Positions 11 to 38,853 of a stretch of DNA of 44,393 bases are shown here, piece after piece (the stretch's first letter is position 1; every line of letters begins with the position of its first letter). The translations under genes were made by a program, and so were the position numbers. Source of the DNA: Deltaproteobacteria bacterium PRO3 (lineage in GTDB: Bacteria > UBA10199 > DSSB01); assembly GCA_030263375.1 (NCBI GenBank), contig SZOV01000016.1, forward strand, positions 1 through 44,393, given 5' to 3'. The notes under the pieces were generated by a model that did no database searches, was not told where the DNA came from, and worked only from the letters and a program-made list of their open reading frames with translations.

Positions 11-990
11 AATTTCTCGAGGAAAACCTTTCCGTGGCCTCCAGCTGCAAAGACCTTTTTGGGGTTCTCCCACGCGCTCAAGGCCACCGTCGCCAGGCCG
101 ATCCACCCGCCGTACCTCGGCGATTCCGCCGCCGAAGTCAACATCCCGACCTTTTTATCGCCTTGAAACACTTCTACGGGCAAGGGCCCGGAAAAAGCCT
201 GGTCGAGCCGCACCCGGGTCAGCTTGCGGTTGACGTGGCCGCGGCTCTGCACCCGGGCGGTGGTCTCTTGGCCGAGATAGCAGCCCTTGTTGAAGCTGGT
301 CGCCCGCTCGTCGAGGCCGACCTCGGCGACCAGGTTGTCCTCGCCCATGTCCACGCCCAACCTGGGGAGGCCCAGCTCGAGGCGCCGGAGCTCGAGCGCC
401 TCGGGAGCGGCCTCGTCCAACTCGTCCGCCGCGCGCCAGGCGGAGATCTGCTCGCGCAGCATCGAGGCCGTCGCGGCGGGGGCCAGGAGGTCCCAGCGCT
501 CCGGATCGTCGACGTGGGGAAAAAGCAAGACCTCGGCCTCGCCCCAGCGGGCGCGCGCGACGGTCCGGGCCTCGGGCGCGAGCGTCAGCCCGCAGCGGGA
601 CTCCAACAAGGCCCTGGTCTTGGGTCCCGCCAGGGCGAAATGGGCGAACTCCCCATCGATCCGCTTCAGGGTCGCGTTGGCGAACATCAAGTAGGTGGCC
701 AAATGGGCCTCGGTCTTTGCGCCGTAACCCCGTGGGAAGAGCAGGAGGATCCGCTCGGGCAGGTTGAGCGCTCGGACCGTGCTGACCAGTTTTCCTTTTT
801 GGGTGAGAAAGGCGGCGGCGGTCGTGCGGTCGACCGCCAAATTCTTGATGTCCTGGGTGACGTAGGCATTGAGGAAATTTTTGCGGTCGGCGCCGCTCAG
901 CTCGTAGAGCTCTTCCTGGTTTTCTTCCCAGGCGAGGGTCCGCGCCGTCGGCGAGGCCTCGATGGGGATCCTGGTTTCGGCGCTTGGCAT
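7..990 (-). CDS. ygfZ: YgfZ/GcvT-like folate-binding protein
   Basis: A 327-residue member of the YgfZ/COG0354 family, paralogues of the glycine-cleavage T protein that bind folate and support assembly or repair of certain Fe-S enzymes. The family signature K-G-C-Y-x-G-Q-E is present with its conserved Cys near residue 237. The C-terminal part resembles the GcvT barrel end. The start at 988-990 is chosen because family similarity begins there; upstream in-frame codons to 1386 give unrelated Arg/Pro-rich sequence that is antisense to the next gene. An AGGTG lies just upstream of the start. The gene appears monocistronic. Family assignment is strong; the molecular role is from family knowledge. 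Confidence 0.9.
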   Translation of the reverse strand: MPSAETRIPIEASPTARTLAWEENQEELYELSGADRKNFLNAYVTQDIKNLAVDRTTAAAFLTQKGKLVSTVRALNLPERILLLFPRGYGAKTEAHLATYLMFANATLKRIDGEFAHFALAGPKTRALLESRCGLTLAPEARTVARARWGEAEVLLFPHVDDPERWDLLAPAATASMLREQISAWRAADELDEAAPEALELRRLELGLPRLGVDMGEDNLVAEVGLDERATSFNKGCYLGQETTARVQSRGHVNRKLTRVRLDQAFSGPLPVEVFQGDKKVGMLTSAAESPRYGGWIGLATVALSAWENPKKVFAAGGHGKVFLEKL

Positions 991-1053
991 CGCGACACCT
1001 ATATAATGATCCCTGGGGCCGGTCAATCCGCGGACTGCAAGGGTGTTGGCGCG

Positions 1054-1083
1054 AAAAAAAAGGGCGCCTCCGGCGAGGCGCCC
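1054..1083 (-). terminator. Rho-independent terminator of beta-helix gene
   Basis: A perfect 9-bp stem (GGGCGCCTC 1062-1070 with GAGGCGCCC 1075-1083, loop of four) is followed on the minus strand by eight T (A run at 1054-1061). It sits 22 bases after the stop of the leftward beta-helix gene. Confidence 0.92.
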
Positions 1084-1105
1084 TAAGGATTTCCTAGAGG
1101 CGGAA

Positions 1106-3346
1106 TTATTCCGCGAATCGGCTCCGGCGCAGCCGCCAGGCTGCGACGAGCAAGGCCGCCGCACCCAAGGCCGTCCAGGCCCCGTATCGCGAGGGCGTCG
1201 CGGGGGATACCGCGCAACCGCCTCCGGAGAGATCGGGGTTGGCCGGTCCGACGCTGACGAGCACCGAGGAGGTGTTGTTGGCCGGGTCAGGATCCTGCTC
1301 CGAGCCCTGGACCGTGGCGGTGTTCTCGACGTCGCCTTCCTCGTTCGCCGCGACGATGATTTCCACGACGAAGGAATCCCCGGCATCGAGTTCGGCTAAG
1401 GTGCAGGTGACGGTGTTGCCGGCGGAGCTGCAGTCCGCCTGATCGGAGCCGACCGAGACCAAAGCGAGTTCCGCCGGGACGGCGTCCGAGACCTCGATGT
1501 CGAAGTTTTTGCCGGGGCCGTTGTTGGTGATCGTGAGCGTGTAGGAGAATTCGTCGCCCGTGTCGACTTGGGCGGCGCTGGCCGTCTTGACGATCTCGAG
1601 ATCCGACGAACCCAGCTCGAAAGCGCCGATGTCGCAGCGCGGGCCGCTGGGACGGATCTGGCCGCGCTGGTCGGTGGTGACCGCGGAGCCGTTGCCGTCG
1701 ACGCAACCTGCGGGGTCGCCGCCGTCGATCGCCGGGCTGCCGGCGAGCAGGGCGCGAGTTTGGGTGGGTCCGCCGTTGTCGGCTAGCGGGCCGAGCAGGG
1801 GATCAACGCCGTAGAGATCGGTCGAGGCCGGGTCGCCCTGCGGGGGCGTAATGGTGCAGTCCGCGTCGGAACCGATGATGTTGTAGCCGTCGGAGGTAAT
1901 GGGCCCACCGAAGCAATCCGGCCCCATCCCGGCGTTGGCCGTGTTTTGGGCGAGGATGCTGTTGCGGAGGGTGAGGGTGCCCGAATTGAAAAGACCGCCG
2001 CCGCTGCCGGATCCGTTGTTGTCGGAGTCGGCCTGGTTGTCGACGATCGTGACATTGCTGAATTGGGCATCGCTCGCGCCGACGTAGACGCCGCCGCCGT
2101 CGAAGAGGGCCAAATTTCCGCTCACGGTAATATTGGTGAAATCGACGTTGGTACCGCTCGCGAAAACTCCCGCCTGAACGTCGGCACTGTTCCCGTCGAC
2201 CACGGAGTTGAGGAGGACGACGTTGCTGGCGGAAAGGTAAAGGCCGCCGCCGGAACCGCCGCCCTGGATGGAGTTTCCGGAGGCGGTGGCGTCATTCACC
2301 GTGACGTTGCTGCCGCTGATAAAGGCACCGCCGCCGGAACCACCGCCGGGCATTTGATTTCCGGTGACCGTCAGGCCGGAAACGGTGATGTTGCTGCCGC
2401 TGAAAAAAACGCCGCCGCCGGTGCCGCCGTTGTCGACAGTGTTGGTATTGGCGGTCAGGTCGGTGGCGATGAGGGAGCTGGCGCCAAAAAACACCCCGCC
2501 GCCGGAGCCGCCGTTGGTGAGGGTGTTGTTGGAGGCCTCCACTTGGCTGAGCGCGATGGGGCTTCCGCCGCTGCAAAAGAGGCCGCCGCCGGAACCGCTG
2601 TCCATGGTGTTTCCGTTGAACTGCGACTCGGTCGCCTCCAGCGTTCCCCCCGCGGAGAAAAACAATCCCCCTCCGGTTCCGCTGTTGGTGACGGTGTTGC
2701 CGTTCACGGTGCTGTTGCGGATGTTCAGGCCGCCGCCGCTGCTGAAAAAAACGCCGCCGCCCGGACCATTATCCAGGGTGTTGCCGTCGATGTTGGAATT
2801 TTCGATCGTGGCGGGAGAAGAGAGGTAGAGGCCGCCCCCGCTGGTTACGGCTTGGTTGCCTGTGATCTCGCAATCGGAGACCGTGACCAGGTATCCGTTG
2901 CTGGGCACGTAGATCCCGCCGCCGTCGCCGGCGCTTCCGTTCTGGACGGTCAAGCCGCTGAAGGTGAGGACCCCGCCCGCCCCGCCGGCTTCGAGGATGC
3001 GGTCGTTGAGTGCCGGCTGGACCCCGTTAATGATGGTGACCCCGGGGCCTTGGCCTTGAAGGATCACGCCGAAATCCACGTCGAGGTCGCCGCTTTCGGG
3101 ATTGCCGGCCTCGGGGATGCTTAAGTCGTAGGTGCCGGCATCCAGTTGAATGGTGTCGAGATCGGGCAAGGCGTTGGCGGCCAGCACCGCCTCGCGCAGG
3201 GAGCAGGAGCCCCCGGTATTGCAGCCGTTGGGGGCCGGCAGGGGGGCCGGGTCATCGAATCGGTTGACCACGAAGGTCGCGGCCTGGGCCGCGCCGCCGA
3301 TCATCATAGGCAGTGCCAGTGCCGCTAGGGATAATTTCCACCGCAT
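1106..3346 (-). CDS. Secreted parallel beta-helix repeat protein with DUF11 domain and C-terminal sorting tail
   Basis: A 746-residue predicted surface or secreted protein. A signal peptide (residues 1-22, cut after AQA) precedes the N-terminal CSLREAV motif typical of right-handed beta-helix (choice-of-anchor Q) proteins. From about residue 130 to 440 run repeats of roughly 29 residues with Gly-Ser-Gly-Gly-Gly turns and Asn ladders. A DUF11 immunoglobulin-like domain follows at about 582-690 (SDLEIVKTAS start). The end (about 707-746) has SGGGC, a hydrophobic helix and an RLRRSR tail, resembling MYXO-CTERM or JDVT-CTERM sorting signals. An SD of GGAGG lies at 3352-3356. A strong terminator follows. 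The ligand or enzymatic role is unknown; an adhesin or envelope role is possible. Confidence 0.88.
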   Translation of the reverse strand: MRWKLSLAALALPMMIGGAAQAATFVVNRFDDPAPLPAPNGCNTGGSCSLREAVLAANALPDLDTIQLDAGTYDLSIPEAGNPESGDLDVDFGVILQGQGPGVTIINGVQPALNDRILEAGGAGGVLTFSGLTVQNGSAGDGGGIYVPSNGYLVTVSDCEITGNQAVTSGGGLYLSSPATIENSNIDGNTLDNGPGGGVFFSSGGGLNIRNSTVNGNTVTNSGTGGGLFFSAGGTLEATESQFNGNTMDSGSGGGLFCSGGSPIALSQVEASNNTLTNGGSGGGVFFGASSLIATDLTANTNTVDNGGTGGGVFFSGSNITVSGLTVTGNQMPGGGSGGGAFISGSNVTVNDATASGNSIQGGGSGGGLYLSASNVVLLNSVVDGNSADVQAGVFASGTNVDFTNITVSGNLALFDGGGVYVGASDAQFSNVTIVDNQADSDNNGSGSGGGLFNSGTLTLRNSILAQNTANAGMGPDCFGGPITSDGYNIIGSDADCTITPPQGDPASTDLYGVDPLLGPLADNGGPTQTRALLAGSPAIDGGDPAGCVDGNGSAVTTDQRGQIRPSGPRCDIGAFELGSSDLEIVKTASAAQVDTGDEFSYTLTITNNGPGKNFDIEVSDAVPAELALVSVGSDQADCSSAGNTVTCTLAELDAGDSFVVEIIVAANEEGDVENTATVQGSEQDPDPANNTSSVLVSVGPANPDLSGGGCAVSPATPSRYGAWTALGAAALLVAAWRLRRSRFAE

Positions 3347-3574
3347 GAGGAGCCTCCGAAATAAGGTTTTAGGTAGGGATCGGAACGAGCGGATATTAAG
3401 ACCGGGAAAGACCCGCGGTCAAAGGATTGTTGGAGAATTTTCTGGCCTTTTCAAGGGAGGGGAGAGATCCTTAAAATGGAAGCGATACGGGTTGATAAAG
3501 GTTGTAAAATCGTTGCCAGTGCCCGGATAAAATAGAATCACGTCGCTTTTCAAAACCTTGAGAGGAGCGCATTT

Positions 3575-4060
3575 ATGTCGGAACCCACTCCTAAAGACAA
3601 AATCGGCCAGGCCCTGGGACGCATCGCCAGCGGGGTCGCCGTCCTCACCACGCAAGACAAGGACATGCCCGGCGCCATGCTGGCCTCGTGGTTCCAGCAG
3701 GTGAGCTTCGAGCCTCCGATGGTCTCCTTCGCCGTGAAGCGGGGCCGTCCGGTGGCCGAGATGATCCAGCACTCCAAGAAGCTCGCCCTCAACATCCTGC
3801 ACACCGGGCAGAAGGACATGCTATCCCATTTCGGCCGCGGCTTCGAGCCGGGCCAGGATCCCTTCTCCGGCATCAAGACCGAGCGGCAATCGCTGGGCGT
3901 GCCCATCCTGAAAAACTGCCTCTGCTTCCTGGAATGCGAGCTGCGCCACCAGTACGACGCGGGCGACCACCAGATCTTCGTCGCCGAGGTGGTGAACGCC
4001 AGCAACGAGGAAGAGGGGCAGCCGATGGTGCACATCCGCCGCAGCGGTTTCAATTATTAG
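3575..4060 (+). CDS. Flavin reductase-like (FMN-binding split-barrel) protein
   Basis: A 161-residue protein of the flavin-reductase domain family (PF01613 type), which bind FMN and reduce flavins or act as small oxidoreductases. The segment after residue 15 (ASGVAVLTT), the MLASWFQQVSFEPP block and the VSFAVKRG segment are the usual FMN-pocket motifs. Length is typical. The start at 3575 is preceded by GAGAGGAG. It lies divergent from the beta-helix gene, with 228 bases between in which no clear promoter was identified. The partner monooxygenase, if any, is not adjacent, so substrate is unknown. Confidence 0.88.
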   Translation: MSEPTPKDKIGQALGRIASGVAVLTTQDKDMPGAMLASWFQQVSFEPPMVSFAVKRGRPVAEMIQHSKKLALNILHTGQKDMLSHFGRGFEPGQDPFSGIKTERQSLGVPILKNCLCFLECELRHQYDAGDHQIFVAEVVNASNEEEGQPMVHIRRSGFNY

Positions 4061-4072
4061 GCAATGGTTCGG

Positions 4073-4321
4073 CTAGGATTGCGGCCGAAACAGTTTGGAG
4101 AAGGCCGGACGCGGCGTTTCGGCCACCCGGCGCGCGGGGTCTTCGCCGGAAACGTAGCGGGAGCGGCCGTTTTCCGTCGCGGCGGCCTCGCCGGTAGCGG
4201 GGCCTGCGGAGTCATTCGAAAAAATCAGCGATTCAAAGGGAAGGCTCTCCGAACCCAGGACGGAACCCGGCCGGATCTCGGGATGGGCGGGATGGGGGAC
4301 TTTATGGGTCATAGACGACAC
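4073..4321 (-). CDS. Small hypothetical protein (doubtful)
   Basis: An 82-residue reading frame lying between flavin reductase and mutY, in the same direction as mutY and 110 bases after it. It has mixed, protein-like composition (Pro, Glu, Ser) and an AAGGTG about eight bases before the first ATG; a second ATG follows three codons later. No domain, signal or membrane segment is recognised. A frame on the opposite strand (4064-4435) is more Arg/Gly-rich and less convincing. If this is not a gene, 4061-4431 is a non-coding gap holding a short stem, GAGGCC/GGCCTC, near 4330-4360. Confidence 0.4.
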   Translation of the reverse strand: MSSMTHKVPHPAHPEIRPGSVLGSESLPFESLIFSNDSAGPATGEAAATENGRSRYVSGEDPARRVAETPRPAFSKLFRPQS

Positions 4322-4431
4322 ACCTTTGGAGGCCCTCGATTCGGGGGGAATCCCAGGCCTCTGTACTCATTTTCGGCCCTTTTCCCCACGAGAGTTGCGA
4401 CCCTGCCACAGCCCCGCCCGGAAAGTCCATC

Positions 4432-5505
4432 CTAGATTAGCTTTGCCGCCGCCAAGACCTTGCGGTCGAAATTGGGCAGGGCGGCCCCCGCCAGTTCCTT
4501 TTTCGTGAAAAATCGCGCCTCCTCGTAGGGACCCGCAGCCTTGAGGCGGCCCCGGGCCTCCCCGCTCCAGGCCCAGGTGGTGATGCGGTGCTGGGTGATC
4601 GCGTGGGTGGTGGCGGGCAGGGCTTGGGGCCGGAGGAGGGCCAGGCCCAGGTGGCTTCGCAGGCACTCGCCCAGCGCGGTCTCGGTGGCCGGCGCCTCGG
4701 CACAATACTCGTGGGGCAGGCCCCAGAGGCCCTGGAACCAGCGGGCGGCGCGGGGCTTGACCAGCAGGACCGACCCGCCCCGCAGGGCAACGGCCGCCGC
4801 GCGTTGCAGCCTCAGCGTCTTTTGCGGCGGGGGACTCTCGGGAAAGGCCTCGGGCTCGCCGTCGCCGCGGGCCGCGCAGAGGCCTTGGACGGGACAGCGC
4901 TCGCAGGAGGGCAGGGCGACGCGGCAGAGGGTCGCGCCCAGTTCCATCAGGGCCTGGTTGAAGTCGCCCGGGTGCTCGGGGTCGACCAGGTCGGCGGCGA
5001 GGGCCCAAATTTCCTTCTGCAGGCGTGCATCCTTCGCATGGCCCTTCCGCGCGAAGACCCGCGAGAGGACACGGACGACGTTGCCGTCGACCAAGGGGCT
5101 GGGCCGCTGGAAGGCGATGGAGGCGATGGCGCCCGCGGTGTAGGGCCCGATGCCGGGGAGTTCCCGCAGGGCCTCGGGGTCGTCGGGGAGCCTCCCGCCG
5201 TGGCGCTCGGCCACGGCCCGCGCGCCGCGCTGCAAGAGCTTGGCGCGTCGGTAGTAGCCCAGGCCGGCCCATAGGGCCAAGACATCCTCTTCCTCGGCGC
5301 GGGCGAGGGCGGCGATCGTCGGGAACTTTTTCAAGAATCGTTCGTAGTAGGGAATGACGGTGGCGACCTGGGTCTGCTGCAGCATGATCTCGCTCACCCA
5401 GATGGCGTAGGGGTCGCGGCTGCGGCGCCAGGGGAGATCGCGCTTGTATTTTTGGTACCAATCGAGGAGTTTTTTGCGGAAGTTTTTTTGAAACGTAGCG
5501 TCCAT
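4432..5505 (-). CDS. mutY: A/G-specific adenine DNA glycosylase MutY
   Basis: A 357-residue base-excision repair enzyme removing adenine mispaired with 8-oxoguanine or guanine. The catalytic Glu39 lies in SEIMLQQT. A helix-hairpin-helix (LPGIGPYTAGA, 116-126) is followed by VDGNVVR with catalytic Asp140. The four Fe-S cysteines (194, 201, 204, 210) have the exact C-x6-C-x2-C-x5-C spacing. The C-terminal third is the Nudix-like domain that recognises 8-oxoG. The start at 5505 (MDATF) is chosen because family similarity begins there. An upstream in-frame extension to 5649 would read through a REP palindrome and is antisense to the next gene. Confidence 0.96.
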   Translation of the reverse strand: MDATFQKNFRKKLLDWYQKYKRDLPWRRSRDPYAIWVSEIMLQQTQVATVIPYYERFLKKFPTIAALARAEEEDVLALWAGLGYYRRAKLLQRGARAVAERHGGRLPDDPEALRELPGIGPYTAGAIASIAFQRPSPLVDGNVVRVLSRVFARKGHAKDARLQKEIWALAADLVDPEHPGDFNQALMELGATLCRVALPSCERCPVQGLCAARGDGEPEAFPESPPPQKTLRLQRAAAVALRGGSVLLVKPRAARWFQGLWGLPHEYCAEAPATETALGECLRSHLGLALLRPQALPATTHAITQHRITTWAWSGEARGRLKAAGPYEEARFFTKKELAGAALPNFDRKVLAAAKLI

Positions 5506-29937: not shown

Positions 29938-31761
29938 CTAAGCCTTGGCCTCCAGCTCCGCCCAACGCCGGTACAGGGCCTCGACCTCGCCCTCCGCCGC
30001 CGCGAGTTTTTCGCTCAACTCCAGTAACAGCGCCGCCTGGCTGGCGTTGGCGGGCGATTCGAGCTCGGCGCGCAGGGCGGCGGCCTTCGCCTCCGCCTCG
30101 TGGATCTTGGCCTCCATGCCGTCGAACTCCCGCTGTTCCAAGTAGCTCAATTTTTTCTTCTTCTCCGCTTCTTCGCGATTGGCGGCGGCCGCCTCGCCGC
30201 GCGGCGGCGGGGCCTCCCATTTCAGCGCCGCGTGCCAATCCTCCCACTGCTCCAACGAGGCGAAGGCGACGATCTGTCCCGCGGCCGAGCTGCCCGGAGG
30301 CCCGAAGGCGAGGATGCGGTTGGCGATCTCGTGCAGAAAGTAGCGATCGTGGCTCACCAACAGGACCGCCCCGGGGAATTCCGCGAGGCAGTTTCTCAGG
30401 ACCTCCAGCGTGGCGATGTCGAGATCGTTGGTCGGCTCGTCCAAAACCAGGACGTTCGCGGGGCGCAGCATCAGCTTGGCGATCAGCAGGCGGCTCTGCT
30501 CGCCGCCGCTCAAGCGCCCCACCGGCATCTCCATCTGCGCCGGGTTGAAGAGAAAGCGGTCGAGATAGCCGCGGACGTGGACCGGATTTTCGCGGTATTC
30601 GACGTGGTCGCCGGCCGGGCAGAGCGTCTTGATCAGGCTTAGGCCGGGATCGAGGGTCTCGCGGTTCTGCTCGAAGTAGGCGACGCGCAGCGCCTCGGCG
30701 TGTCGAACCGTCCCCGCGTCCGGCGGCTCTTGGCCCAACAGGACGCGCAGCAGCGTGGATTTTCCGCAGCCGTTGGGGCCGATCAGGCCGAGGCGGCTCT
30801 GCGGGGTGACCAGCAGGTCCAGTCCGGAGAACAAGGGCCGGCCGCCGAGGGACTTCGCCACGCCTTGCGCCTCGATCAACTTTTTCGGGCGTTTCTCTTC
30901 CGCGGCGAAGTCGATGGCGACGCCGCGCGTCCGGTTGCGCGCGCTGACCTGCTCCAATTCTTCGGCGATCTCTCCGGCGCGCTGGATGCGGGCCTGCTGC
31001 TTCGTCCCGCGGGCCTTGGGGCCGCGGCGCAGCCACTCGGTCTCGCGGCGCAGGGTGTTCTTCAGGACGAGCTCGCGGCGCTCCTGCGCGGCGCGCAGTT
31101 GCTCCTTGGCCTCCAAATAGCCGGCGTAGTCCCCGGGGACGCTCAGGATGCCTTCCGGCAAGGCGGGGTCCAGCTCGAGGATGCGGGTGGCGACCCGTTG
31201 GAGGAAGAGTCGGTCGTGGGTGATGGTCAGGCTGGCGAAGGGCGCCTTGGCGAGCAGTCCTTCCAGCCAGAGGATGCTCTCGACGTCGAGGTGGTTGGTC
31301 GGCTCGTCCAGCAGCAGGAGATCGGGGCGCTTGGCCAGCTCGCGGGCCAGCGCGACGCGTTTCTTCCAACCGCCGGAGAGCTCGGAAACCCGCGTGGCCG
31401 GACCGACGCCCTCCCGCCCGTCCAGCGAGAGCTTGGAGAGCCACTCCTGCAGCGTGGCCTGGAACTCCCAATCTTCGGGATCGGGATGCGCCTCGAGGAT
31501 CGCCGACTCGACGGTCGCCTCGGGGGCGAAGGCTGGCACTTGCTCCAGCCAGCCGACGCGTAGCCCGCGGCGCACGGAGATCTCGCCGGCGTCGGGCCGC
31601 TCGCGGCCCGCGAGCAGGCTCAGCAGGGTGCTCTTGCCCGCGCCGTTGGGGCCGATCAGGCCGACGTGCTCGCCTTCCTCGAGGGCGAAGCTCAAGTCCC
31701 GAAACAGCGGCCGGGCCCCGTAGGATTTGGCGATTTTTTGCGCGGCGATCAGTATCGGCAT
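29938..31761 (-). CDS. ABC-F family ATPase (Uup-like)
   Basis: A 607-residue soluble protein with two ABC domains and no membrane part. The first half has GPNGAGKST, LSGGWKKR and LLLLDEPTNHLD; the second has GPNGCGKST, LSGGEQSR and VLVLDEPTNDLD. The linker with WLRRGPKARGTKQQARIQ is the P-site tRNA-interaction motif. A C-terminal coiled coil (about 535-607) points to Uup rather than EttA. ABC-F proteins act on ribosomes or stalled translation. The start at 31761 (MPILIAAQ) is chosen over an upstream in-frame ATG that would overlap the riboswitch promoter. Confidence 0.94.
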   Translation of the reverse strand: MPILIAAQKIAKSYGARPLFRDLSFALEEGEHVGLIGPNGAGKSTLLSLLAGRERPDAGEISVRRGLRVGWLEQVPAFAPEATVESAILEAHPDPEDWEFQATLQEWLSKLSLDGREGVGPATRVSELSGGWKKRVALARELAKRPDLLLLDEPTNHLDVESILWLEGLLAKAPFASLTITHDRLFLQRVATRILELDPALPEGILSVPGDYAGYLEAKEQLRAAQERRELVLKNTLRRETEWLRRGPKARGTKQQARIQRAGEIAEELEQVSARNRTRGVAIDFAAEEKRPKKLIEAQGVAKSLGGRPLFSGLDLLVTPQSRLGLIGPNGCGKSTLLRVLLGQEPPDAGTVRHAEALRVAYFEQNRETLDPGLSLIKTLCPAGDHVEYRENPVHVRGYLDRFLFNPAQMEMPVGRLSGGEQSRLLIAKLMLRPANVLVLDEPTNDLDIATLEVLRNCLAEFPGAVLLVSHDRYFLHEIANRILAFGPPGSSAAGQIVAFASLEQWEDWHAALKWEAPPPRGEAAAANREEAEKKKKLSYLEQREFDGMEAKIHEAEAKAAALRAELESPANASQAALLLELSEKLAAAEGEVEALYRRWAELEAKA

Positions 31762-31835
31762 GGCGGGGGATCTCTCGCATGTCCTTGGGGTTTTTCCAAG
31801 CCCCGCGCGGCCTCGGAAAAACCCGGAAATGCATC

Positions 31836-31864
31836 TTGTCACTCGGCGGGGACGGCGCTACACT
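31836..31864 (+). promoter_or_regulatory. Promoter of the c-di-GMP aptamer RNA
   Basis: TTGTCA (31836-31841) and TACACT (31859-31864) are 17 bases apart, giving a predicted start near 31871, about 40 bases before the aptamer core. This rightward promoter lies in the gap between the ABC-F start and the carH stop. Confidence 0.65.
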
Positions 31865-31904
31865 TTTCAAGTCGGACGCCGTTGACGGGAGTCCGGACGT
31901 CCGG

Positions 31905-31980
31905 CCGAAAAAGGCAAACTCCGAGCAATCGGAGGACGCAAAGCCTCCGGTCCCTAGGGGATAGCGGGGCTGCCAAAAGC
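31905..31980 (+). ncRNA. Cyclic di-GMP-I (GEMM) riboswitch aptamer, free-standing
   Basis: All core elements of the c-di-GMP-I class occur in order: GGCAAAC (31913-31919), a P2 stem TCCGA/TCGGA closed by a GCAA tetraloop (GNRA, as needed for docking), GGACGCAAAGCC (31934-31945), TCCGG with the P3 loop, and TAGCGGGGCTGCC (31962-31974). The aptamer is followed by a short stem (31985-32001) and a strong terminator at 32008-32046. No rightward gene follows: the next gene, carH, is on the opposite strand, and the next rightward gene starts more than 1.1 kb away. The predicted RNA of about 175 bases resembles the merRNA of Bdellovibrio, an abundant stand-alone c-di-GMP-binding riboswitch RNA. Confidence 0.92.
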
Positions 31981-32007
31981 TTCCGCCTGGCTTTTTCAGG
32001 CCGACGC

Positions 32008-32046
32008 AACCCACCTACCGTAAGCGCTAGGTGGGTTTTGGTTTTT
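32008..32046 (+). terminator. Rho-independent terminator of the c-di-GMP aptamer RNA
   Basis: AACCCACCTA (32008-32017) pairs with TAGGTGGGTT (32028-32037), then TTG and TTTTT. The T run is only on the plus strand, so it serves the riboswitch RNA and not carH. Its last bases overlap the carH stop codon. Confidence 0.9.
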
Positions 32047-32980
32047 AGAGCTTTTCTCGCAAGTATTTCCGAAACAGGCCGAGATCGCCGATCACCCGTC
32101 CTCTTCCCGTCTCGACCGCCTCGCGAAAACGCTCCGCGGCGCGTCCCCCGCATACCCAAGCCGTATCTTTCGGCAAGAGACGCGACAGCCTTTGCAGTTC
32201 GGCTGCGAGTTCGGTCTCTTCCGCGGGAAAGACGATGCTGAGCGCCAACAGCCGCGCCCCGGCATTGCGGACCGCGGCCGCGATCTCTTCGGCGGGGAGA
32301 TTCGCGCCGAGGTAGATCACCTTCCATCCCTCGATGGCCGCCATCTTGGCGGCGAGCAAGGCACCCAGCTCGTGGATCTGGCCGGCCGGCGTTGCGACGA
32401 CCACGCTGGCTCCGGCTCCGGCCTCGGGATAGGCCGGTTTGAGACCGCCGACGAAGCTTCGCATCACCGAGGAGGCGAGGTGCTCCTGCGCGATGCGGAA
32501 ATCGCCGCGCTGCCAGCGCTCGCCGACCGCCTCGAGCAGGGGCGAGACGATCTCCTCGAGCAGGACCTGTTGGCTGAAGGCCAGTGAGGCGCGGTCGAGC
32601 AGGTCTTCCAACCCCTTGCCGTCCAATCCTTCGATCTTTTCCAGACAGCCTTCGAGATAGGGGAGCGGGTCTTCTCGGGAGGAGGGGGGCTTTTCGGTCG
32701 CGGCTTGGGGTTTGGTGGCCGACATCGTCGGGGGCAGGTTTGCCGCCAGGGCCGCAAGATCGGCATCCGGCAGTTGGGCGATCTGGCTGATGCTGTGCCC
32801 GAAGTCGGTGAGACGGGCGAGCCGCTCGAGCCGAGCGACCTCCGCCTCGCTGTACATCCTCCGATTGGTCGGGCTGCGGTCGGGGGTCAGGGCCCCGTAG
32901 CGACGCTCCCAAACCCGAATCACGTGCGGGCTTAGGCCCGTTCGCTTGACCACCCATTTCATCGGATACCGAGTTTCCAC
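32045..32980 (-). CDS. carH: CarH/LitR-type MerR regulator with adenosylcobalamin-binding domain
   Basis: A 311-residue transcription regulator. An N-terminal MerR helix-turn-helix (VVKRTGLSPHVIRVWERRYGAL, Arg-Arg-Tyr motif) is followed by a linker. A four-helix bundle has W156-x9-E166-H167, the same spacing as Trp131/Glu141/His142 in Thermus CarH. A B12-binding Rossmann domain has QIHELG (His203 as lower ligand) and YLGANLP. This residue set indicates light sensing through AdoCbl: a tetramer represses in the dark and light breaks it. It is divergent from the fasciclin gene, whose promoter carries matching operator repeats. Family evidence is strong; photoreception is inferred. Confidence 0.93.
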   Translation of the reverse strand: METRYPMKWVVKRTGLSPHVIRVWERRYGALTPDRSPTNRRMYSEAEVARLERLARLTDFGHSISQIAQLPDADLAALAANLPPTMSATKPQAATEKPPSSREDPLPYLEGCLEKIEGLDGKGLEDLLDRASLAFSQQVLLEEIVSPLLEAVGERWQRGDFRIAQEHLASSVMRSFVGGLKPAYPEAGAGASVVVATPAGQIHELGALLAAKMAAIEGWKVIYLGANLPAEEIAAAVRNAGARLLALSIVFPAEETELAAELQRLSRLLPKDTAWVCGGRAAERFREAVETGRGRVIGDLGLFRKYLREKL

Positions 32981-33020: not shown

Positions 33021-33061
33021 TACACAAAATATAGAAATAATTTAGACAAAATATTGACAAA
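33021..33061 (+). promoter_or_regulatory. Candidate CarH operator: four 8-base motifs at 11-bp spacing
   Basis: TACACAAA (33021), TAGAAATA (33032), TAGACAAA (33043) and TTGACAAA (33054) start exactly 11 bp apart. The fourth covers the -35 box of the fasciclin promoter. Thermus CarH binds 11-bp direct repeats overlapping a -35 element, so the layout fits repression by the adjacent carH product. Confidence 0.75.
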
Positions 33062-33081
33062 TACTCGTAAGTGGGTAGGAT
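33054..33081 (+). promoter_or_regulatory. Fasciclin gene promoter
   Basis: TTGACA (33054-33059) and TAGGAT (33076-33081), 16 bases apart, predict a start near 33088 and a leader of about 110 bases. Confidence 0.75.
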
Positions 33082-33197: not shown

Positions 33198-33716
33198 ATG
33201 AAGATCCCGAAATTACTCATATTTTCTGCTTTTGCCCTAAGTCTGGCCGCCCTTCCCACCCCTCGAGCGGCCTGGGCCGGAGACGCGAAACCCGCGGCCT
33301 CCGCCGGCCCCGCCGACATCGTGGACACCGCGGTGGCGGCGGGCAATTTCAAGACCCTGGCCACCGCCCTGCAGGCCGCGGGCCTGATCGAAACCCTCAA
33401 GGGACCTGGCCCCTTCACCGTCTTTGCGCCGACCGATGAGGCCTTCGCAAAGCTGCCGGCGGGGGCCCTCGAGGGCCTGCTCAAGGACAAGGCGAAGCTG
33501 AGCGCCGTCCTGACCTATCATGTGGTTCCGGGTATGGTGACGGCCTCCGAGGTCGTCAAATTGAAAGAGGCCAAGACGGTCAACGGCCAGGCCGCCAAGA
33601 TCACCGTCCAGGGCAGCGAGGTGATGGTGGATGGAGCCAAGGTGGTCAAGACCGACATCAAGACCAAGAACGGCGTGATCCATGTGATTGACGCGGTGAT
33701 TTTGCCCAAGTCCTGA
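33198..33716 (+). CDS. Secreted fasciclin (FAS1)-domain protein
   Basis: A 172-residue exported protein: signal peptide (cut near AAWA, residue 27) then one FAS1 domain. Hallmarks are [48 protein letters not shown] and a C-terminal [16 protein letters not shown]1 proteins act in adhesion or cell-surface interactions. The gene has its own promoter under probable CarH control, a structured leader, and a strong terminator 34 bases after the stop, so it is a single-gene unit. Its role in a light response is unknown. Confidence 0.94.
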
Positions 33717-33750: not shown

Positions 33751-33784
33751 CGGCGCCCGTACCTAAAGACGGGCGCCGTTTTTT
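33751..33784 (+). terminator. Rho-independent terminator of fasciclin gene
   Basis: CGGCGCCCGT (33751-33760) pairs perfectly with ACGGGCGCCG (33769-33778), loop of eight, then six T. Confidence 0.95.
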
Positions 33785-34091
33785 ATTCTTGCGGGCAAGG
33801 GGAAATGGCTTCCCATTCGCATCTCCCTTGATTTAGATTGAAAGGACGCAGCTGGAACACGCGGGCGAGAAAGAGGTGGTTTTGGCCCGCCCGCGATGTC
33901 CAATGACCCAGGCGGCTTCGCATCGGGGTTCGCCCCACCCGCGGACATGGGGCGAGGTCGTCCTTACACCTCCCCTTCGCCGCAAGGCCAAGGGGATGTG
34001 GTGGGGTGGATATAAATAACCACCCAACACCAACCAATTTGTCGCTTGCAGGATGGCGGCGTTCCGGCGGCGTTCGCAGGCCAAGGCCGGG
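33785..34091 (+). other. Hairpin-rich leader before reverse transcriptase
   Basis: About 300 bases without a convincing gene. Visible stems: CGCGGGCG/CGCCCGCG (33860-33867 with 33888-33895), GGGG-TTCG-CCCC (33925-33936) in competition with CGCCCCA/TGGGGCG (33931-33954), CCCCTT/AAGGGG (33972-33995), and GGGTGG/CCACCC around an AT-rich loop (34004-34025). Such density is compatible with a non-coding RNA partner of the reverse transcriptase, but could also be a long structured 5' leader. TATAAA in the last loop is a weak -10 candidate. Confidence 0.45.
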
Positions 34092-35564
34092 ATGGGGAAA
34101 AGCTTTTCTATCCCGGCCTCACCACCCTTTAAGGTCTCCTTGGGTAAGCTCTTCGCTCAGATCGTCTCTCCCGAAAACATTCGCGAGGCCTACCGCCTGA
34201 TCCGCGAAAAGCACTACGACCCCTATCTTCAGTATTACAAGAAGTTCGCCTCGGGGATCGACGGCGTGGACCTGCGCGACTTCGACGACAACCTGGAAGC
34301 GCAGCTTAAGGCCTGCCGCGATTTTCTGCTTGCCGAAGACCGGCCCTTTTATCCCCAGATCCTGCGCAAGGTGCCCAAGGACACGCCGGGGAAGTTTCGC
34401 GAGATCTACCTCGTGGCCCTGCGCGACAAGGTGACGCAGAAGGCGATGGCCCTGCCCTTGGTCGAGCGCTTCGAGAAGCTTTACTACCCGAATCTTTTTT
34501 CCTATCGGAACGGGCGCTCCTACGGCACCATTGCCGCCGCGCGCCGCGTTCGCAAGCTGCTGCAGGCGCATGACGGAAGGCTCTTCGTCTACAAGACCGA
34601 CATTGCGGATTACTTCGACAATATCGACCAGGGCCGCTTGTTGGACATGCTGCGCGAGGCGCTGCCCGACGAGCCGGAAGTCCGGGGCCTGGTGCGGCAG
34701 TTCGTGCATCAGCGGAAGTTTTGGGACGGGCATCTGATCTCGCCCATTCGCGGCATCCCCGCCGGCTCGAGCCTGTCGACCGTCTTCGCCAACTTCTACC
34801 TCTGGCCCTTGGACCGCGAGATGTTCCGCGGCGACTACCATTACCTGCGTTACGGCGACGACATCCTATTGCTGGATCCGGATCCGGCGAGGATCGAGGC
34901 CGGGAGCCGCCGCATCGCCGAGGTCTTGGCCGGCCACGGGCTCAGCTCCTCGCCGCACAAGACCCTGCGCAAGGCCCCGGGCGAGGCCTTCGAGTACCTG
35001 GGCTACCGTTTCGCGGAGGGAAAGATCCACATTGGGAGCGTCGCGATGGGGCGCTTCAAGCAGTGGGCCTACGAGCAGCTGGTCGTCGACCGTTACCGCG
35101 ACTATTCCAACAAGACCGACGAGGAGCGCCGGGCCTTGCTGAAGAAGATCATCCTCGACATCAATACCGGCCTCGCCGCGACCTTGGGCCTGAGGCAGCT
35201 GCCCTGGGTGCGCGCCTTCCCGGTGGTCGACGACGACTCGAGCTTCCGCCGGATGGACGCCTTCATCAAGGACCGCATCCGCCTCACCATCCTGCGCCGA
35301 CCCTCGCCGCGCAACCGGCGGTTGATCCCCGAGGCCTGGTTCCGCGAGTTGGGCTACAAGAGCCTGACCGGCGCCTACCACCGCATCCTGCGCCGCCGCA
35401 GTCTGGCGCCCTACCGGGGCTGGCGGCGCTACTTCGGGACGAACTTCGAGATGTTCCTCCAGGGGCGGGAGAAGAAAGAGGGACTTGCGCGAAAATGGGC
35501 CAACTTGAAGGGCAAGTTGCGCTACGTTCGGCAGGCGCTGAACGGGGAGATCAAGTTCGACTGA
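34092..35564 (+). CDS. Stand-alone reverse transcriptase (group II-like, unassigned class)
   Basis: A 490-residue RNA-directed DNA polymerase. RT0-like N-terminus (SPENIREAYRLIREKHYDP, ASGIDGVDLRDF), RT2 (IYLVALRDKVTQKAM), RT3 (SYRNGRSYGT), motif A TDIADYFDNID (Asp170), motif B GIPAGSSLS (from 221), active site YGDD (254-257) and YLGYRF are all present. The C-terminal 200 residues are basic and thumb-like, with no HNH or integrase part. Motif B is not the SQ form of diversity-generating RTs, and the retron NAxxH and VTG motifs are absent. Start 34092 has AAGG upstream; ATG 34053 is an alternative. A domesticated or defence-type (DRT/UG) RT is the best guess. Confidence 0.9.
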   Translation: MGKSFSIPASPPFKVSLGKLFAQIVSPENIREAYRLIREKHYDPYLQYYKKFASGIDGVDLRDFDDNLEAQLKACRDFLLAEDRPFYPQILRKVPKDTPGKFREIYLVALRDKVTQKAMALPLVERFEKLYYPNLFSYRNGRSYGTIAAARRVRKLLQAHDGRLFVYKTDIADYFDNIDQGRLLDMLREALPDEPEVRGLVRQFVHQRKFWDGHLISPIRGIPAGSSLSTVFANFYLWPLDREMFRGDYHYLRYGDDILLLDPDPARIEAGSRRIAEVLAGHGLSSSPHKTLRKAPGEAFEYLGYRFAEGKIHIGSVAMGRFKQWAYEQLVVDRYRDYSNKTDEERRALLKKIILDINTGLAATLGLRQLPWVRAFPVVDDDSSFRRMDAFIKDRIRLTILRRPSPRNRRLIPEAWFRELGYKSLTGAYHRILRRRSLAPYRGWRRYFGTNFEMFLQGREKKEGLARKWANLKGKLRYVRQALNGEIKFD

Positions 35565-35583
35565 GGAAGGGACCTCCGTCCGC

Positions 35584-37455
35584 TCAGAGGGCGGGGACGG
35601 GGATAGGCTCTTCCCCGCCCTGCGCGAGCAGCTCGCGGTAATAGGCGGATCGGGCGATCAAGTCCTCGTGCCGGCCCTGGGCCTCCACGGTGCCCTTCTT
35701 TAAGACCACGACCCAATCGGGATGCAGCTGGGGCAGCGGACGGTGCGAGATGATCAGCACCGTCTTGTTTCGAAAATGTTCGGCGATGATCTTTAATACC
35801 CCGCGCTCGGAGCGGTGGTCCAGCGAGGCGGTCGGCTCGTCCATCAGGACGATCGGCGCGTCCTTGGCGGCGGCGCGCATCAGCGCCAGCTTCTGCAGCT
35901 CGCCGCGCGAGTAGCCCAGGCCCTCCGCGCCGACCTTCTGCCCGAACTTGCGCTCCAGCGAGGCGATGAAGCGATTGAGCTCCATCTGCCGCCCCAGGTC
36001 GAGGGCCTTCTCGAGCTGGGCCTCCATGTCGGGCCCCTTGTTCCCCATTTCGCCGAAGAAGACGTTGCCCAGGATCGTGTCCTCGACGTGGAGCTGGTCC
36101 TGGGCCACCACGCTGAAGTAGGCGCGTAGGTCGTCCAGGCGCATCTTGCGGATGTTCACCCCGTCGATCCGGATGCTTCCGCGGTTGCCGTCGTAGAGGC
36201 GCATCAATAAATTCAGCAGGGTGCTCTTGCCCGCGCCGCTCTGGCCGACGATCAGGACCTTCTGCCCCGGTTCGGCGCGGAAGCTGACGTTACGCAGCCC
36301 GCCGATCCCGCGGGCGTATTGGAACCAGACGCCGAGGAATTCGACCCTGCCCTCGCGGCGTTCCGGTACGACGGGGTGCTCGGGCTCGGCGATCGGGGTG
36401 GTGTTTTCGAAGATCGAAAAGACGGTCCGAATGCCGATCAAGCCCGCCTGCAGGTAAGCCGTCGCGCGGACGAACTGCGAGAGCGGCCGGAACAGCAGCC
36501 CCAGGCAGATCATGTAGGCCAGGACCTCGCCGTGACTCAGCTGCCCTTGGATGATCTGGCGCCCGCCGTACCACAGCGCCGCCAGCAGCACGGCGGAGGC
36601 GAGGAAGCCGATCAGGATGGCGTTGCCGGCGTAGACCATCGTGCGTTCGATGCGGAATTTCTTGTCTTGATTCAAGACCTCCTCGAAGCGGTCGCCCTCG
36701 CGCAGCCCGCCGCCGAAGATCTGGAAGAGCTTGGCGGAGTGGTAGGCGCGGTCCAGGATTTTCAGGATTTGGTCGTTCTTGGTCTGCAACTGGGAGGCGA
36801 CCTCGGCCATGTAGCGGTTGAGGCGGCGGATGTAGAGGACGACGAAGGGCACGAGGGCGGAGAGGATCAGCGTCAGCCGCCAGTCGATGACGGTGGCGGC
36901 GACGGTAAGTAAAAGGATGTTTACCGACTCGCGCAGACAGACATAGGCGAAGGTCTCGACCAAGACCTTGATCATCATGACGCTGTAGGTGAGCTTGGAG
37001 ACCAGCTTGCCGGCGGCGTTGTTTTCGAAATAGGTGAGCGGCAGGCGCATCTGGTAGCGGAACAGGTCGCGGCGGATCTCGGTGACCAGGTCCATCGAGA
37101 AGGTCGTGACCAGGCGCTGCTCGTAATAGCGGAGGACGGCGTGGAGCAGGTAGATCCCAAGTCCGCCCAGGATCACCCAGTTGAGCAGGGCGTAGTCCTG
37201 CTTGGGGACGATGTAATCCAAGACGAACCGCGACAGAAAGGGCAAGGCGAGGCCGAGGACGCCGCCGAGGACGATCAAGGCCGAGATGCCGAGGATCGTC
37301 TTCTTGTGGCGGCCGACGTAGCCCAAAAAACGCGCCCAGTAGATTTGGTCGCGCAGGGCCTTGAAGCGCTTGGCGCGGTCGCGGCGCTTGGTTTCGCGCG
37401 CGGCGCGATGACGTTCGCGGTGGGTCGGCTTTTTGAAAAAGGGGAGCGTGATCAA
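35584..37455 (-). CDS. ABC exporter, fused permease and ATPase (MsbA/MDR-like)
   Basis: A 623-residue half-transporter. A charged N-terminal tail (1-40, Arg/Lys-rich) leads to six TM helices (about 50-340) and one ABC domain. Walker A GQSGAGKST, Walker B IVLMDEPTASLD, D-loop and H-loop IISHR are intact. The signature is YSRGELQ instead of LSGGQ, a clear deviation. It likely acts as a homodimer exporting lipid, peptide or drug. It is convergent with the reverse transcriptase gene (19 bases between stops) and follows the SGNH gene by 33 bases. Confidence 0.93.
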   Translation of the reverse strand: MITLPFFKKPTHRERHRAARETKRRDRAKRFKALRDQIYWARFLGYVGRHKKTILGISALIVLGGVLGLALPFLSRFVLDYIVPKQDYALLNWVILGGLGIYLLHAVLRYYEQRLVTTFSMDLVTEIRRDLFRYQMRLPLTYFENNAAGKLVSKLTYSVMMIKVLVETFAYVCLRESVNILLLTVAATVIDWRLTLILSALVPFVVLYIRRLNRYMAEVASQLQTKNDQILKILDRAYHSAKLFQIFGGGLREGDRFEEVLNQDKKFRIERTMVYAGNAILIGFLASAVLLAALWYGGRQIIQGQLSHGEVLAYMICLGLLFRPLSQFVRATAYLQAGLIGIRTVFSIFENTTPIAEPEHPVVPERREGRVEFLGVWFQYARGIGGLRNVSFRAEPGQKVLIVGQSGAGKSTLLNLLMRLYDGNRGSIRIDGVNIRKMRLDDLRAYFSVVAQDQLHVEDTILGNVFFGEMGNKGPDMEAQLEKALDLGRQMELNRFIASLERKFGQKVGAEGLGYSRGELQKLALMRAAAKDAPIVLMDEPTASLDHRSERGVLKIIAEHFRNKTVLIISHRPLPQLHPDWVVVLKKGTVEAQGRHEDLIARSAYYRELLAQGGEEPIPVPAL

Positions 37456-37488
37456 TGCCGCGAAAACTCGCCCATCCCCGCGGGGGAG

Positions 37489-38853
37489 TCAAGGGGCGAT
37501 CGCCAGTGCCTTCATTTCCTGAATCGTCTCCGGCGTCCCGATAATCCCCACCCCGGGATCCGTATCGTCCGCGTCGCGGAATTGGAAGAGCAGCTGCACG
37601 ATGGGCCGGACGGGCTCGTAGCTCGGCCCGCGCGGGAAGCCGTCGCCGTCGGCGTCGACGTAGGGGTCGTTGAGGCGTACCTGCGAGACCTCGATCTCGG
37701 GGACCGAGGCGCCGAGGGCCTGGTTGATCGCGCGGATGAAGAGATTGGCCGTATAGGCGTGCCCGCTGTGCGAGAAGTGCACGCCGTCCAGGCAGAAGAA
37801 CCCGCCCGCGCCCCATTCGGCGGTGTAGGTCGTGCCCTCGACGGTCTGCGGCGCTCGCAGAGAGGCGTTCAGGTCGACGAGATGCAGGGAGTGCTTCGCC
37901 GTCAGCTCGGCGAGGATTTGGTTCAAGGCGGCAATCCGCGCCTGGATCGGTGCCGCTTCTTCGGCGGTCAGGACCGAGCTGTCCACCAGGTGCTCCGTCA
38001 GCGTCGCCTCCCACTCGCGGCCGGCGAGTAAATCGGTGTAGATACGCAGGGCGGCGGGGAGGCTCATCCGGGCGCCCTCCGGCAGACGGTCGGCGGGGAC
38101 CGTCAAGCCCGTCCAGCGTTTCACCGTCTCGCCCGAGACCAGGTAGGCGATCTGCGTGATGTCGGGGATGTTGCCGACGAAAACCTCTGCGCCGGTCGCG
38201 GCCAATTTCCCCAAGACAAAATCCATGTTCGCCCGGAATTCCTCCGGAGGCGTCATCGCCGCCGCGACGCCGGCGGACGTGTAATTCTCGTTGCCGATCT
38301 GGACCACCGAGCCCAGCACGTCGTTGTTGAGCCAAAGGGTCATGATCTTGGGCGTGGCGGGATTCGCGTCTTTCCATTTCTCTGCCAGCCAGAGCGCGGC
38401 ATCGAGCTGGCTGGTGGGCTCTCCGCGGTATTCGGAAAAGGCGATCGGCGCCAGGGTGCGGTCGCGGAGACTGCTCGCGGAGCTCAGCGCCTCGCCCGTG
38501 GCCTTGGTCTCGAAAATGCTCTTGGAGTCCTCGCCCGAGATGCCGAGGAGGGTGGGGATCTTGTCGGGGTTTTTGCGCGGCCCGTCGACCGCGAGCAGGG
38601 GCATGGTCAGCGTGCCGCCATAGGCCTTGGCGAGCTGCTTGGCGAGGATCGCCGCGTAGCTGTGCGGCTGGGTGTGCTCGTTGGTGGTGCCGTCTTGCAC
38701 CCCGGCGGCCAGGCTGTCGCCCAGGGCGACGTAGTTAAAGCTGGGCGAGGCCGGCGGCGCCGGGTTCTCCGGGGCGTTGGAGGCGCCTCCGCCGCAGGCC
38801 AGTAGAGACAAAGTGGCGAGGCCGGCGAGGGCCTTGGCGAAATTCCGTGACAT
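37489..38853 (-). CDS. SGNH/GDSL-hydrolase lipoprotein
   Basis: A 454-residue lipoprotein with lipobox LLAC (Cys20) and a Pro-rich linker. Block I GDSLAAG holds the nucleophile Ser47. TLWLNNDVLG supplies the Asn of block III, and DGVHFSHSGHA the catalytic Asp and His of block V. The C-terminal 110 residues (after IEVSQVRLND, with DADGDGFPRG, possibly calcium-binding) are an extension. The start at 38853 is chosen for the signal peptide; an upstream ATG at 38925 would bury it. The enzyme is probably an outer-membrane-facing esterase or lipase; substrate unknown. Confidence 0.92.
   Translation of the reverse strand: MSRNFAKALAGLATLSLLACGGGASNAPENPAPPASPSFNYVALGDSLAAGVQDGTTNEHTQPHSYAAILAKQLAKAYGGTLTMPLLAVDGPRKNPDKIPTLLGISGEDSKSIFETKATGEALSSASSLRDRTLAPIAFSEYRGEPTSQLDAALWLAEKWKDANPATPKIMTLWLNNDVLGSVVQIGNENYTSAGVAAAMTPPEEFRANMDFVLGKLAATGAEVFVGNIPDITQIAYLVSGETVKRWTGLTVPADRLPEGARMSLPAALRIYTDLLAGREWEATLTEHLVDSSVLTAEEAAPIQARIAALNQILAELTAKHSLHLVDLNASLRAPQTVEGTTYTAEWGAGGFFCLDGVHFSHSGHAYTANLFIRAINQALGASVPEIEVSQVRLNDPYVDADGDGFPRGPSYEPVRPIVQLLFQFRDADDTDPGVGIIGTPETIQEMKALAIAP

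Follow-up and report, generated by a model that had tools for sequence, protein, structure and literature searches.

The closest described counterpart of the RNA reported here is the merRNA of Bdellovibrio bacteriovorus, which was recognised by its massive abundance and for which massive expression is the defining trait. The merRNA is a non-coding RNA of 445 nt that contains a c-di-GMP riboswitch and lacks a conserved downstream reading frame; its level is approximately 5000-fold higher in the attack phase and it has been proposed to be a store of c-di-GMP (PMC3627812). Its authors saw no conservation outside Bdellovibrio (PMC3627812). Other c-di-GMP-I riboswitches act in antisense, with the aptamer convergent with a regulator gene (PMC9943018). 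The residues through which c-di-GMP-I aptamers contact their ligand have been named as G20, A47 and C92 (PMC4744006, PMC11218506).

In this study, a c-di-GMP-I aptamer was found at positions 31904-31978 on the plus strand of a 44,393-nt stretch of DNA (the window) from Deltaproteobacteria bacterium PRO3 (genome G000), where cmscan matched RF03167 with 68.4 bits (E 3.3e-14). A search of the whole genome (3.55 Mb) with RF01051 gave this locus, at 31903-31977 of contig C16, as its sole match, with 70.9 bits (E 9.2e-14), and both scores lie above the respective gathering cut-offs of 59 bits (RF03167) and 35 bits (RF01051). The RF01051 search gave no match in 14 control genomes. The original prediction, that the core motifs of a c-di-GMP-I aptamer are present on the plus strand, is borne out by both matches, including the covariance search with RF01051 that it had called for.

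The aptamer resembles other members of RF01051 and RF03167 in its fold, in its GNRA loop (GCAA) and in its ligand-contact residues. In the residue numbering of the Vc2 sequence, the G at 31913 is equivalent to G20 and the A at 31940 to A47, and the UGCC segment containing C92 is kept, C92 being assigned to the segment rather than to an exact column. It differs from those members in having no regulated gene in place and in its weak P1 helix, in which two of the three model pairs are non-standard in the alignment to the model. The gene-linked aptamers of genomes G003 and G006 share the weak P1 and the RF01051 model itself has no P1 pairs, and thus this weakness was not counted as disqualifying. 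The best Rfam label is the 'GGC' variant RF03167, the meaning of which was deduced from the consensus of the model. Position 47 is A instead of the G of the model, as it also is in other members from the class displayed in the alignment; the ligand site therefore appears to be that of an ordinary c-di-GMP-I aptamer, and the label is no sign of an altered site. Judged from its sequence and predicted fold, 31904-31978 is a confident c-di-GMP-I aptamer.

The predicted promoter and terminator of the aptamer were also recovered. A motif scan located a putative sigma-70-type promoter, TTGTCA-17-TACACT, upstream of the aptamer at 31836-31864 (+); this motif is expected 0.0 ± 0.1 times in shuffled sequences, and TTGTCA-17-TAGAAT is found at the matching place in a sister species of the same genus (genome G001). 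A 5′ hairpin at the predicted transcription start (31871-31905, −21.3 kcal/mol) is equalled by 1 % of shuffles. Between the aptamer and the terminator there is a linker hairpin (31985-32001, −8.0 kcal/mol), found in the same place in G001 (−6.4 kcal/mol). Folding placed the intrinsic terminator at 32009-32046 (+), with a stem at 32009-32036 (ACCCACCTA...TAGGTGGGT, −16.1 kcal/mol) followed by the U-tract TTTTGGTTTTT. It is absent from the listing of the automatic scan, probably because its loop is longer than the 8-nt limit of the scan. The RNA predicted from these elements is approximately 172 nt long and contains no ATG. Folding of the full 176-nt stretch is more favourable than that of its shuffles (z = −3.8).

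A terminator-type switch should offer the 5′ arm of its terminator an alternative upstream partner. This is the case for the two gene-linked terminators examined in the class (genomes G012 and G015), in which most arm positions pair upstream at 0.6-0.99. In contrast, no antiterminator was found in G000 by thermodynamic folding, as no position of the 5′ arm pairs upstream at more than 0.26. The free fold (−82.9 kcal/mol) and the fold with the aptamer enforced (−82.4 kcal/mol) are separated by a cost of 0.5 kcal/mol, and the terminator forms in both. According to these models, and arguing from few RNAs, c-di-GMP binding should therefore not control termination in G000. The terminator arm of G001 has scattered partners inside an insert of its P3 loop. 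The free fold of G000 also contained an anti-aptamer helix (GGCCGAAAAAG/CUUUUUCAGGCC), which was rejected because its complementarity is lost in G001. A closing helix between the aptamer end and the U-tract (CCAAAA/UUUUGG) reached 0.89-0.99 in the isolated 3′ domain of G001 and 0.02-0.15 in G000, and is a tentative element of the modelled fold.

As had been predicted, the next gene lies on the opposite strand and its stop codon (32045-32047) touches the terminator U-tract. Domain search identified it as a carH-like regulator with MerR_1, B12-binding_2 and B12-binding domains (32045-32980, −), a neighbour outside the unit. The claimed absence of an adjacent sense gene also held. The first rightward gene, which encodes a fasciclin-domain protein by domain search (33198-33716, +), is 1.2 kb off with the opposing gene between, and no convincing rightward gene was found between it and the unit. 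With a promoter-like site (TTGACA-16-TAGGAT, 33054-33081) in front and a strong terminator (33751-33778) immediately after it, this gene looks like a separate transcription unit. On the left, the unit is flanked by a minus-strand gene for an ABC-F ATPase (29938-31842; its likelier start is at 31761). A reverse transcriptase gene (34053-35564, +; domain search, best PADLOC model RT_UG26) follows further to the right, and beyond it there are an ABC transporter gene (−) and a lipase-like gene, both named by eye from the sequence.

The region of the reverse transcriptase (33825-35564; 3255-4972 of locus L037 in G001) scores 171 bits with RT_UG26, and the leader of approximately 230 bp before its start codon is conserved in G001, where the orthologue is 75 % identical and follows the aptamer unit. 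The conserved leader is possibly a leader RNA or reflects a different coding start. A second copy of the gene, 43 % identical, is located on contig C18 of G000, and a plasmid search with the reverse transcriptase gave only distant matches, mostly group II maturase-like. The aptamer was considered as a partner RNA of the enzyme and rejected, the C18 copy having no aptamer nearby and G000 having just one.

Aptamers were found in 7 of the 46 genomes examined from the class, 15 in total, and all 13 outside G000 and G001 have a same-strand reading frame within approximately 300 nt, which in most cases encodes a secreted or large surface-type protein. The weaker cases are G003, where a 63-aa frame precedes an aminopeptidase-like gene (+286), and G005a, where a frame of about 36 codons, read by eye, follows at +138. 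Among 11 loci from named genomes, a non-random choice found through the P2 stem that they have in common with this aptamer, ten have a same-strand frame starting at most approximately 210 nt from the motif; the eleventh (L061) has a frame that overlaps the motif, and its next gene is at +441. Riboswitches of the class such as those of G005, G006, G012 and G015 have the same aptamer as G000, and some have a terminator shortly downstream, but genes, in most cases for secreted proteins, follow them at a short distance. With its next rightward gene 1.2 kb away and an oppositely oriented gene in between, the orphan layout of G000 is exceptional.

Two of the gene-linked regions deserve mention. At 6821-8882 of L039 (G005:C111), three c-di-GMP-I aptamers share one orientation at spacings of 0.9-1.1 kb. 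Each precedes a short or secreted-protein gene, and these genes have the leader GAAAGGAAACGGCTATG in common; the set looks like duplicated riboswitch-gene cassettes. At 5909-8391 of L041 (G006:C1) and in L040, c-di-GMP-I aptamers precede genes for secreted proteins with D-rich calcium-binding-type repeats, which are typical surface targets of c-di-GMP.

Alignment showed that the sister species carries an orthologous unit, in which a promoter and a 5′ hairpin are followed by the aptamer, a linker hairpin and a terminator. Identity to G000 reaches 91 % over 45 nt in the 5′ half of the aptamer and 73 % in the 3′ half together with the terminator; in G001 the P3-loop insert of approximately 160 nt (L037 5104-5262) lies between the two halves. 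A high degree of structure is predicted for the insert, and the P3 stem below it is extended. In P3, two two-sided and two one-sided changes distinguish the species and no pair is broken, according to a pair list written by hand from the alignment. The 5′ hairpin of G001 has a different sequence but is strong too at the predicted start (−18.0 kcal/mol), and in the terminator the stem arms are kept while the U-tract is poorer.

The sequences immediately flanking the unit do not match between the two species on either side. A TPR gene takes the place of the ABC-F gene on the left of the G001 unit. On the right, the terminator leads nearly straight into the reverse transcriptase leader, and positions 33851-38799 of the window align with 11-4972 of the G001 contig; approximately 1.8 kb with carH and the fasciclin gene is therefore missing there. 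For carH, the nearest relative within the family shares only 37 % identity and is on another contig. A rightward gene at the corresponding site of related genomes had been named as refuting the original prediction, and G001 provides this in part, its reverse transcriptase gene starting approximately 280 nt past the terminator. This arrangement looks secondary, through loss of the carH-fasciclin segment. In G004, from another genus of the same family, an iron-transport-like cluster, a fasciclin gene and a lipase-like gene are on one contig, and no aptamer, carH or reverse transcriptase was found between them. It follows from this gene order, by parsimony over three genomes, that fasciclin beside the lipase-like gene is probably the older arrangement and that the adjacency of aptamer and reverse transcriptase in G001 is probably secondary. 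No remnants of the unit were found at the syntenic site of G004, and no aptamer match was obtained in G004 (99 % complete) or G002 (80 % complete). The known orthologues of the unit are two, both from draft metagenome-assembled genomes.

We consider the chances slightly better than even that the unit encodes a stand-alone, constitutively terminated RNA predicted to bind c-di-GMP, with buffering or storage as its most likely effect, given that a downstream sense gene and a visible antiterminator are both lacking. Transcription from its own promoter would produce a stable structured RNA of the predicted length, which the hairpins at both ends would protect. The canonical aptamer would bind c-di-GMP via the usual residues, the RNA would end at a ligand-independent terminator and c-di-GMP would be buffered or stored by it, following the proposal made for merRNA. 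G000 encodes four GGDEF domains, and c-di-GMP is therefore probably made in this bacterium. Buffering requires an RNA copy number comparable to the number of ligand molecules. The predicted RNA is like merRNA in being a stand-alone aptamer RNA without a downstream reading frame, but it is much shorter, and the likeness is one of layout. The layout claimed in the original prediction is upheld, and the unit is kept in the sister species despite changed neighbours, a pattern in keeping with a merRNA-type arrangement. By analogy, we describe the unit as merRNA-like in its layout and do not call it a merRNA, a name tied to massive expression.

The class uses the order aptamer, terminator and gene for secreted proteins, for example in G012 with a similar terminator, and the G000 unit might accordingly be a displaced or relict cis-riboswitch, which lost its gene by rearrangement or which controls the reverse transcriptase (in G001) or the fasciclin gene through occasional read-through. 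The reverse transcriptase is indeed the next co-directional gene in G001, and fasciclin is a secreted adhesion-type domain and a plausible c-di-GMP target. Decay would be expected of a relict, yet the promoter, aptamer, linker hairpin and terminator are kept in two species with compensatory changes. Furthermore, the reverse transcriptase of G000 is 2 kb off, behind the opposing gene, and the fasciclin gene is framed by a promoter-like site of its own and a strong terminator. No aptamer adjoins the fasciclin homologues of G004 and G001, on which ground fasciclin was rejected as the ancestral target. A displaced or relict switch, the main alternative, thus seems rather unlikely to us.

The original prediction had also suggested that, with the terminator bypassed, the transcript would run antisense into carH and couple c-di-GMP to light/B12 control. 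In such a reading, c-di-GMP would set the read-through into the 3′ end of carH. The unit and carH converge, as aptamer and regulator gene do in antisense-acting riboswitches, and the carH stop codon lies inside the U-tract; c-di-GMP riboswitches were ranked as the family most prone to antisense placement in a survey (PMC9943018). Unlike in those systems, the neighbour changes between species and switchable read-through was not detected: G001 keeps the unit with carH missing from the site, and folding gave no antiterminator for c-di-GMP-dependent read-through. The aptamer-carH arrangement, whose conservation in relatives was to be checked, was thus not found in G001, the link to carH was rejected as a general explanation, and antisense control is very improbable. 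The unit could also encode a trans-acting small RNA whose target pairing is gated by c-di-GMP, which would fit its free-standing promoter-aptamer-terminator organisation and its sRNA-like size. However, pairing is predicted along almost the entire RNA, and no obvious conserved single-stranded seed was seen in it, which makes such a role improbable.

The stand-alone c-di-GMP-binding RNA is therefore the reading we prefer. In the literature found, the idea that an aptamer RNA can store or buffer a second messenger is so far represented by one unvalidated case, merRNA. That the present unit is another RNA serving as a reservoir or buffer of c-di-GMP, from an uncultured lineage outside Bdellovibrio and kept by selection while its neighbours change, is a tentative and still doubtful proposal. 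The unit would offer a small RNA amenable to testing in a laboratory strain. If the proposal is true, such RNAs would become a recurring design and not a curiosity, with a further stand-alone unit kept across species whatever its neighbours.
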